The translations under genes and the position numbers were made by a program. Shown here in pieces: positions 27,624 through 32,457 of a stretch of DNA of 64,000 bases. Every line of letters begins with the position of its first letter. Position 1 is the first letter of the stretch. The notes beneath the pieces are model-generated. The model was not told the DNA's origin and did no database searches. It saw only the letters and a list, made by a program, of their open reading frames with translations. The DNA is from Microvirga arvi (GTDB lineage: Bacteria; Pseudomonadota; Alphaproteobacteria; Rhizobiales; Beijerinckiaceae), in contig NZ_JAFEMD010000002.1 of the NCBI RefSeq assembly GCF_016892765.1, forward strand, positions 62,001 to 126,000, read 5' to 3'.

Positions 27624-28100
27624 TTAGTGCGAGGGGATGCCTGCCACCACGATCTCCGTCAGGACAGAGTTGGCGATGAAGCATTCCTTGTGGGCGAGGT
27701 GATGCATGTCGGCGATCTGCTCAGGCGTCGGGAGCTTGTCGCCTGAGAATTCGATGGCAGGATCCAGGGTGACCTTGGAGACGAAGAGCTTGCCGTTCCC
27801 GTTTTTCGTCATGATCCCAAGCGCCTTGTCCTCGTAAGCATCGACGACGAAACGCTTCTTGGCGGCGATCGACAGGAAGGTGAGCATATGGCAGCTCGAC
27901 AAAGCCGCCACGAACGCCTCTTCCGGATCGACCGCGTCCTCCCGCGATTGAGGCAATGGCACGACGGAAGGTGACGCGGAGCCCGGCACTTCGACGCCGC
28001 CGTCGAAAGCCCAGATATGGCCGCGGCTGTAACGGTTGTCGGAGAAGCTTTCGCCCTCTCCCCGCGTCCAGCGGATCGTCGCTCTGTATTCGTGCGCCAT
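27624..28100 (-). CDS. OsmC-family peroxide reductase within the gcv operon
   Basis: 158 residues of the OsmC/Ohr superfamily: thiol peroxidases that reduce organic hydroperoxides. The two catalytic cysteines appear in VAALSSCHMLTFLSIAAKK (near residue 70) and HKECFIANSVLTE (near residue 138), and the conserved Arg/Glu region near the N-terminus is present. It lies between gcvH (15 bases upstream) and gcvPA (22 bases downstream), so it is transcribed with the glycine cleavage system. OsmC/Ohr enzymes can be re-reduced by lipoylated proteins, making the neighbouring GcvH a candidate partner (inference). Confidence 0.88.
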   Translation of the reverse strand: MAHEYRATIRWTRGEGESFSDNRYSRGHIWAFDGGVEVPGSASPSVVPLPQSREDAVDPEEAFVAALSSCHMLTFLSIAAKKRFVVDAYEDKALGIMTKNGNGKLFVSKVTLDPAIEFSGDKLPTPEQIADMHHLAHKECFIANSVLTEIVVAGIPSH

Positions 28101-28115
28101 GCCGTGTTCTCTCGC

Positions 28116-28490
28116 TTACGAGATCGACTTCACGAATTCCTGGTATTGCTCTTCGGTCATGAGGCCGTCGAGCTCGCTCTGGTCCGTGAGGCGGATCTTC
28201 ATGAACCATCCGCGACCAGCGGCATCCTCGTTCACCGTGCCCGGGGAAGACTCGAGCTCGCTGTTGACCTCGACCACCTCGCCGGAGACCGGCGCATAGA
28301 CTTCGCTTGCCGCCTTCACGCTCTCGACGACAGCCGCCTCGTCACCCTTCGACAGGGTCTTGCCGACGCTGGGCAGCTCCACGAACACGACATCGCCGAG
28401 CTGGCCTTGGGCGTAGTCGGAAATGCCGACGATGCCGGCATCGCCCTCGACGCGGATGTATTCGTGATCCTTGGTGTAGCGCGTGGTCAT
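28116..28490 (-). CDS. gcvH: Glycine cleavage system H protein (lipoyl carrier)
   Basis: 124 residues. Lipoyl-attachment lysine in [21 protein letters not shown]-terminal [20 protein letters not shown] and [20 protein letters not shown] are standard. Shuttles the aminomethyl group between P, T and L proteins. Second gene of the operon, 25 bases after gcvT. Confidence 0.97.
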
Positions 28491-29715: not shown

Positions 29716-29912
29716 GCGCCCCCTCTGTCCCGAGACCTGAGAGATTTCCCTTGGCGCCGAAGCCCCAGGTTACGCCCGTCGGTGGACGACGTTTGCAAAA
29801 ACGTCGCCGCTTTCCAGAGTGCCAGCTCCCGCGCGGTCCTTTGGCCTGAGCGTTTCCGGGGCGGTTGCGCCTTCGGCGCCGGACGCTGAGGTCCGGTCTC
29901 TTCCGCGGGGAT
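29716..29912 (-). promoter_or_regulatory. Tandem glycine riboswitch controlling the gcv operon
   Basis: Read on the minus strand from 29912: aptamer 1 has GGAAGAGACCGG, GCGCCGAAGGCGCAA, CGGAAACGCTCAGGCC, AAAGGACCGCG and GGCACTCTGGA. Aptamer 2 follows after a short linker with GGGCTTCGGCGCCAAGGG, AAATCTCTCAGG and GGGACAGAGGGGGC. These are the conserved cores of the two-aptamer glycine riboswitch, and it lies directly upstream of gcvT, its classic target. The aptamers are separated by a perfect GACGTTT/AAACGTC-type hairpin region. No clear terminator follows, so translational control is possible. Confidence 0.93.
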
Positions 29913-30069: not shown

Positions 30070-30101
30070 TATAACGTACTGCTACTTCAATGAGGGTAAG
30101 T

Positions 30102-30404
30102 ATGGCTGTCTATACGGTAAGCTTTGAACTCAAGTATGATGACGAATACCGCAAGCGGTATGATAGCTTTATGGAGCAAATAAAGAAAACCACGCCTTGG
30201 TGGGCAGAAAACACCTCATACGTTGTAGTAGAAACAACAGAGGACATCGATGCGTTTTGTAGCAGGATCTATACAAAAAGCCTGTTTAACGCTACTAAGG
30301 ACCGATATTTGGTCCTCGACGCCGATGTGAAATCGGGTCGCGTAAGAGGACCAGTAGTTGATAACGACTTGTTCAAACTGCTCCCGTTCGTAAAAAAGCT
30401 CTGA
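30102..30404 (+). CDS. Small Cas2/SinR-like protein in a low-GC islet
   Basis: 100 residues with strand-helix-strand-strand-helix pattern: MAVYTVSFELKYDDEYRKRY, a tryptophan pair (TTPWWAENTSYVVVETTED), then SLFNATKDRYLVLDADVKSG. This resembles the SinR/Cas2-like ferredoxin-fold family of small proteins found outside CRISPR loci; no cas gene or array is nearby. Codon use is markedly AT-rich compared with neighbours, pointing to horizontal origin. GAGGG lies five bases before the ATG. Followed by a long hairpin. Function unknown. Confidence 0.65.
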   Translation: MAVYTVSFELKYDDEYRKRYDSFMEQIKKTTPWWAENTSYVVVETTEDIDAFCSRIYTKSLFNATKDRYLVLDADVKSGRVRGPVVDNDLFKLLPFVKKL

Positions 30405-31857: not shown

Positions 31858-32436
31858 TTAGCCGCGACGCCCCGCGGGCGCGCGGCTGCCCAGCCCGACT
31901 TCGATCTCGAAGCTGTTGGCATAGGCCGCCGGAACCACGATGCCGTCCTCGATGATGGACACGTTCGTCTGGGTCTGACCCGCCGGGATCGCGGCCGCCA
32001 CGCGGCGGGAGCGGTTGGCGAACACGGTCGAGCCGTCCTTCACCACGATCTGGACCGGGATGTCATAGCGGCCGGACGATCCGCCGACGCCCAGGAGCGC
32101 CCGGGCTTCGACCCCGATCTTGACCAGGGTCGAGCCGTCCGGCTGGCCGATGCATTCGCGGGCGACCTCACCTAGCGTAATCTGACTGCGGACGGAGCCG
32201 GCCTCGCCGCCGCCGCGAACCTGAAGCGCCGCGCCGCCATCGGTGACGTCGACGGTCGGGCAGTAGACGTCCTCGATGGCAGTGGATTGGGCCGGGGGCT
32301 GCGTGGTTCCCGCCGTGAGCAGCATGTCGCCCACGCCGAAGCCGCCCTCGCCCGGCGCGCCGCAGCCGGCCAGCGCCGTCACGCCGAGCACCGCGAGCGC
32401 CCGCGCGGCTCTGCCGTTCAATCCCTTGGTCATCAT
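31858..32436 (-). CDS. Hypothetical lipoprotein
   Basis: 192 residues with a lipoprotein signal: MMTKGLNGRAARALAVLGVT followed by lipobox LAGC. The mature part (EDVYCPTVDVTDGGAALQVR) has beta-rich periplasmic character, two further cysteines and an acyl-chain anchor implied. Two starts are possible (32454 and 32436); the latter has GGTGGGGGA just upstream. It is transcribed with the IalB gene above it. I cannot assign a function. Confidence 0.75.
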   Translation of the reverse strand: MMTKGLNGRAARALAVLGVTALAGCGAPGEGGFGVGDMLLTAGTTQPPAQSTAIEDVYCPTVDVTDGGAALQVRGGGEAGSVRSQITLGEVARECIGQPDGSTLVKIGVEARALLGVGGSSGRYDIPVQIVVKDGSTVFANRSRRVAAAIPAGQTQTNVSIIEDGIVVPAAYANSFEIEVGLGSRAPAGRRG

Positions 32437-32457
32437 GTCCCCCACCTTCTTCATCGT

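Follow-up and report, generated by a model that had tools for sequence, protein, structure and literature searches.

We analysed a 64,000-nt stretch of the Microvirga arvi genome (contig NZ_JAFEMD010000002.1; hereafter "the window"), in which ORF analysis and Pfam, NCBIfam and Rfam matches revealed, in minus-strand order, a glycine riboswitch followed by gcvT, gcvH, osmC, gcvPA and gcvPB (Table 1). The osmC gene is separated from gcvH by 15 nt and from gcvPA by 22 nt. The ORF and Rfam readings thus bear out the gene order, the two gaps and the riboswitch leader of the original prediction, whose coordinates, 27624-28490, span osmC and gcvH. Its placement of the lipoyl carrier GcvH beside OsmC also holds, as gcvH adjoins osmC and its product scored above the TIGR00527 cut-off; the lysine of the ESVK motif is presumably the lipoylated residue. 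Divergent from the riboswitch lies a 104-aa ORF (30090-30404) with no Pfam or NCBIfam match at E<=1e-3, and the DNA around it appears, by eye, AT-richer than its surroundings.

Table 1. Features of the glycine cleavage operon in the window, in minus-strand order.
Feature	Position	Strand	Evidence
Glycine riboswitch aptamer, RF00504	29824..29915	minus	cmscan 65.7 bits, E 5e-12, model 1-94 of 94
Second, degenerate glycine-aptamer-like stretch	about 29720..29819	minus	by eye: CTCTG...CAGAG stem, CTCTCAGG core
gcvT, aminomethyltransferase, 382 aa	28516..29664	minus	NF010093 528.7 bits
gcvH, lipoyl carrier H-protein, 124 aa, ESVK motif	28116..28490	minus	TIGR00527 155.9 bits, over cut-off
osmC, VCA0330-type OsmC protein, 158 aa, Cys70/Cys140/Arg26/Glu60/61	27624..28100	minus	PF02566 51.7 bits; PDB 2d7v E 1e-56
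gcvPA, glycine dehydrogenase subunit 1, 446 aa	26261..27601	minus	NF001696 609.1 bits
gcvPB, glycine dehydrogenase subunit 2, 523 aa	24693..26264	minus	NF003346 676.8 bits

The osmC product belongs to the OsmC/Ohr superfamily, scoring 51.7 bits with PF02566 against a cut-off of 27.5. Among the NCBIfam models, SACOL1771 alone gave a match at E<=1e-3, and its 23.2 bits fall short of the 166.15-bit cut-off. Since neither TIGR03561 (Ohr) nor TIGR03562 (classical OsmC) matched at E<=1e-3, both identities were rejected; ohr genes, for their part, are typically controlled by OhrR. Among solved structures, the only phmmer match at E<=0.01 was VCA0330 of Vibrio cholerae (2d7v; E 1e-56, residues 4-152). 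A Foldseek search with the AlphaFold monomer (pLDDT 83.6) also ranked 2d7v first (TM 0.60, rmsd 16.3, 58% identity), followed mostly by OsmC/Ohr chains down to E about 0.01; because this superposition was poor, the model was used for family placement only. Judged by its sequence and fold, the protein is a VCA0330-type OsmC, distinct from Ohr and from classical OsmC, in a subfamily that lacks a curated model.

An alignment of 133 rows, representing 131 distinct genes, retained Cys70, Cys140 and Glu60 in every row, Arg26 in 129 and Glu61 in 130, and all five positions were kept after thinning in 51/51 operon copies and 19/19 other copies. The two cysteines align with those of E. coli OsmC (1qwi) in a profile alignment, and Arg26 and Glu60/61 are, by role, taken here to be catalytic positions. 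Although we know of no measured activity in the VCA0330 subfamily, the osmC product is likely a two-cysteine thiol peroxidase. The prediction of an "OsmC-type peroxidase" therefore stands as regards the OsmC domain and the conserved two-cysteine active site, with the qualification that the NCBIfam models place the protein in neither the Ohr nor the classical OsmC family. The genome encodes three further OsmC-family genes, of which one (L001) exceeds the TIGR03562 cut-off (141.6 bits against 85.8, on a 96-aa piece), the second is nearest to PRK10738, presumably YhfA, and falls below the cut-off on a 97-aa piece, and the third carries its OsmC domain inside a 465-codon open frame.

The RF00504 aptamer precedes gcvT and shares its strand, which identifies the operon in the window as a glycine-riboswitch gcv operon, and the same arrangement was found in all 13 further osmC-bearing operons tested, drawn from 38 loci of the order sample and covering all 9 family codes. 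The adjacent aptamer-like stretch gave no Rfam report even at E<=1. A second aptamer was detected above threshold at the equivalent place in 8 of the 13 related operons, so that the riboswitch in the window is likely a degenerate tandem. The short gaps on either side of osmC, together with the riboswitch, suggest that osmC would be co-transcribed with the gcv genes under riboswitch control.

Over 81 operons, the hit-to-hit gaps measured by tblastn had medians of 17 nt ahead of osmC and 31 nt behind it, with gaps longer than 100 nt before osmC in 7 operons and longer than 80 nt after it in 15. By-eye inspection of the long gaps in 12 operons revealed no single recurrent gene; they contain palindromic repeats or small frames, one of which is GNAT-like. 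A palindromic repeat of ~110-130 nt (CCTCATCCTGAGGA...GTCTCGAAGG) separates gcvH and osmC in six Microvirga loci (L005, L011, L021, L023, L034 and L035), and a similar one lies between osmC and gcvPA in L113; the GNAT-acetyltransferase-like frame, seen in a single genome, occupies that same junction in L105 (5478-5965).

We surveyed the arrangement across Hyphomicrobiales, a question raised along with the original prediction, and it indeed recurs: osmC lies between gcvH and gcvPA in 39 of 297 genomes of the order sample, spread over 9 family codes (families were counted as anonymous codes, and the order, class and phylum sets are subsamples). An OsmC relative at E<=1e-20 was present in 52 of these 297 genomes, the window's own included, and in 13 of the 52 it lies outside gcv. 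A protein search for named loci gave 127 confirmed candidates, and among the best 80 that were kept, osmC sits just behind gcvH on the same strand in 43 and is placed otherwise in 37. The gcvPA gene is also present in 42 of the 43, and the remaining contig ends before it. The 35 closest named loci among these best 80 are all labelled Microvirga, and the slot is occupied in 35/35 Microvirga loci fetched, by which a strain-specific insertion was rejected. The eight non-Microvirga slot loci include Xanthobacter autotrophicus, Chelatococcus reniformis and Enterovirga. Some loci figure both among the named loci and in the order sample (L046 = L085 and L050 = L089, with identical osmC DNA), and a total of 81 loci, or 80 distinct osmC genes including the window's own, carry osmC, gcvH and gcvPA on the same strand. 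Together with the spread over 9 family codes and the purifying selection on osmC described below, this count shows that the arrangement is no coincidence. The whole gcvT-gcvH-osmC-gcvPA-gcvPB set occurs twice in Microvirga sp. VF16, on the chromosome and on the 1.4 Mb plasmid pMVF16-1 (L010, L017).

All 39 osmC-operon genomes possess the split gcvPA/gcvPB form, which was found in 162/297 genomes overall, with the division between split and fused gcvP set at E below 1e-160 and carried into the counts by hand. A gcvP-type gene is also present in all 13 genomes with OsmC elsewhere; this is uninformative, since 254 of the 297 genomes have one.

On the basis of the operon layout and of analogy with known systems, we propose that osmC may encode a glycine-induced thiol peroxidase that draws on lipoyl-GcvH, the likeliest of the readings considered, to which we assign a probability of about 0.5. 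According to this proposal, an ancestor within Hyphomicrobiales would have acquired osmC at the gcvH-gcvPA junction by one or a few insertions, and the glycine riboswitch would govern its expression along with that of the glycine cleavage system. Cys70, made reactive by Arg26 and Glu60/61, would reduce an organic peroxide or peroxynitrite and become a sulfenic acid, and Cys140 would then pair with it as a disulfide, as expected from OsmC/Ohr chemistry. The disulfide might in turn be reduced by the dihydrolipoyl arm of GcvH, for which the H and L proteins of Trichomonas vaginalis offer a precedent, and the arm could be charged by lipoamide dehydrogenase and NADH, or directly by glycine turnover. 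Four lipoamide dehydrogenases of the genome score above the model cut-off, and all are encoded outside the operon and off the window's contig.

The original interpretation is partly supported, by the tight spacing behind a glycine riboswitch, the recurrence across Hyphomicrobiales, the conserved two-cysteine active site and the T. vaginalis precedent. A tight pairing of OsmC with GcvH is opposed by the complete lack of gcv linkage outside the order (0/69), by the 13/52 genomes with OsmC elsewhere, by the patchy presence of osmC in the operon and by the lack of a signature in GcvH. Much of this evidence favours a different explanation, in which osmC is a general peroxide defence that is simply co-expressed with the gcv genes, its reductant being any lipoyl domain, such as the E2 of pyruvate or 2-oxoglutarate dehydrogenase, or another thiol, so that the adjacency to gcvH would have no mechanistic meaning beyond co-expression. 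We consider this explanation somewhat unlikely. In its favour, the 69 places outside the order with OsmC relatives at E<=1e-25, found in samples of the class (337 genomes) and of the phylum (397 genomes), all lie apart from gcv genes within the flanks checked, which were 1.5 kb at 47 places and about 3.2 kb at 22; a gcv link beyond Hyphomicrobiales was thus rejected. The named loci of Rhizobium, Pseudomonas and Pectobacterium likewise have OsmC apart from gcv, nine free-standing loci showed no consistent neighbour with a crude longest-frame picker, several of whose frames are shadows, and some split-gcv genomes (G059, G099, G143, G233 and G272) keep OsmC elsewhere. Furthermore, Ohr reportedly takes electrons from SucB/Lpd and, less readily, from thioredoxin. 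What speaks against a general defence is that one slot beside gcvH has been kept across 9 family codes, while other insertions of at least 240 nt are scattered across the junctions (11 gaps in 78 operons).

The GcvH sequences also favour a general defence. When 51 GcvH rows with osmC were compared with 40 without it, no position had a commonest residue differing by more than 0.45 in frequency (uncorrected for phylogeny), and a co-adaptation signature in GcvH at this threshold was therefore rejected. The corresponding scan of OsmC, also uncorrected for phylogeny, found 21 positions that differ between operon and other copies (51 vs 19 rows), whereas the five catalytic positions do not. The rows for both scans were thinned by hand, with eight divergent copies left out.

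Two of the named loci have features of their own. In Pectobacterium peruviense (L084, 7464-7991), the non-gcv OsmC gene directly follows a small gene that resembles, by eye, a MarR-type regulator. The OsmC of a metagenome-assembled genome labelled Rhodocyclaceae (L055) matches the query as closely as those of Rhizobium do (65%), and this contig is possibly a misbinned Rhizobium contig.

It is more doubtful that OsmC acts as an alternative outlet of the glycine cleavage cycle, using an organic peroxide to reoxidise the dihydrolipoyl-GcvH that arises at each turnover, in place of lipoamide dehydrogenase with NAD+. If it did, glycine would become the electron donor for peroxide removal, the cycle could run without making NADH, and the glycine cleavage system of Hyphomicrobiales would contain a built-in peroxide-linked branch.

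A further possibility is that OsmC shields the GcvH lipoyl arm or reactive intermediates from peroxide-derived damage, or repairs them, with bulk detoxification being incidental. This would suit the position of osmC behind the glycine riboswitch and the exposure of the H-protein lipoyl arm during glycine cleavage turnover, but we regard it as improbable, since no GcvH covariation was found and 123 of the 162 split-gcv genomes have no osmC in the operon, which indicates that the arm does not generally need it. In 40 osmC-free operons hand-picked from these 123 (five of the genomes have OsmC elsewhere), the gcvH and gcvPA matches are 3 to 213 nt apart in 39, too close for an osmC-sized gene, and about 895 nt apart in one.

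Turning to the history of the slot, osmC is under purifying selection, with a median dN/dS of 0.153 over 35 Microvirga pairs, and the gcv genes evolve more slowly, with medians of 0.089 to 0.107. In the OsmC tree (84 of the 133 rows, thinned by hand), the operon copies cluster largely by family, and operon and other copies do not form two clades; the location changes 8 times, at least 3 of which are forced by starred branches, with the bootstrap not fully settled. In the gcvPA tree (89 rows thinned by hand, midpoint root, short search), 16 changes are needed to account for where osmC is present or absent, well-supported (starred) branches forcing 9 of them, and none of the 15 rows outside one 74-row group has osmC. 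By these 16 changes and its patchy presence, osmC is dispensable over evolutionary time. As osmC always occupies the same slot, the trees are most simply explained by a single ancient insertion that was later lost many times and sometimes relocated; repeated gain or operon transfer could also have produced this pattern.

The flanking DNA was compared between families as well. Of 577 cross-family pairs, 457 have an ORF in common upstream of gcvT (median flank 3455 nt; the shared frames include antisense shadow frames), and a lipoprotein-like ORF (31858-32454 in the window) has same-strand counterparts there in 20/38 osmC-bearing and 14/40 osmC-free operons of the order sample. Since the upstream gene order is itself conserved, with and without osmC, conserved gene order was rejected as proof of coupling, and the persistence of the osmC linkage argues only weakly for it. 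Downstream, 10 of the 577 pairs share an ORF (median flank 2068 nt). That osmC is a neutral hitch-hiker, a single ancient insertion held in place by general gene-order inertia, would agree with this upstream synteny and with the gcvPA-tree changes, for which recurrent loss is the simplest reading, but it is very improbable in view of the purifying selection, the retained catalytic residues and the persistence of osmC beside a downstream flank that is so rarely shared.

Returning to the proposed use of lipoyl-GcvH by OsmC, lipoyl-dependent peroxidases are known, but to our knowledge the lipoyl protein that serves as their donor in the cell is mostly an open question. Here, an OsmC gene adjoins one specific lipoyl protein, behind a sensor of the pathway substrate, in at least 9 families of one order, which makes the donor question directly testable. 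If OsmC is indeed fed by GcvH, one-carbon metabolism would be linked to peroxide defence in bacteria.

Among the known systems, classical OsmC (E. coli 1nye/1qwi) shares with the window protein the fold family and the aligned cysteine pair, but is only about 15% identical in the fold search, and the genome has a separate TIGR03562 member. VCA0330 belongs to the same subfamily (E 1e-56, 58% identical in the fold search) and was deposited as an "OsmC-like Protein of Unknown Function"; the literature searched yielded no function for it, its name appearing in one genomic-island prediction paper. The Ohr proteins of X. fastidiosa, M. smegmatis and C. glutamicum are two-cysteine thiol peroxidases of the OsmC/Ohr type, as the window protein probably is, and are reduced by a lipoylated protein and lipoamide dehydrogenase, as is proposed here. 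In C. glutamicum, Lpd/SucB is reported to be the best reductant of Ohr, with the highest catalytic efficiency with cumene hydroperoxide (PMC4486171), and in X. fastidiosa, XfOhr is likewise reported to be reduced by lipoylated proteins (PMC5962072). These precedents agree with the earlier claim that Ohr/OsmC peroxidases take electrons from lipoylated proteins. The difference is that the donors tested for Ohr were E2 (SucB) or LpdA, and that the window protein has no Ohr-model match at E<=1e-3.

A bacterial osmC gene within a gcv operon was not described in the literature searched, which comprised titles, openings of abstracts and excerpts and mostly did not extend to subscription papers; in a Pelagibacter table, osmC and glycine riboswitches are separate entries. 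The closest parallel is found in T. vaginalis, where, according to a review, the glycine decarboxylase H and L proteins supply OsmC with electrons via lipoate (PMC7946386). Both systems would thus pair an OsmC peroxidase with an H-protein, a pairing read here from the gene neighbourhood. The T. vaginalis system differs in residing in a eukaryotic organelle with a glycine complex that is reportedly incomplete, as the title of a 2016 paper has it, whereas the operon in the window encodes the full T, H, PA and PB set, with osmC co-encoded behind a riboswitch. The enzyme superfamily, the lipoyl chemistry and the eukaryotic pairing were already known, and the bacterial operon version across one order appears to be new. 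With the precedent of an OsmC fed by H and L proteins, a bacterial osmC gene beside gcvH and behind a glycine riboswitch fits well.
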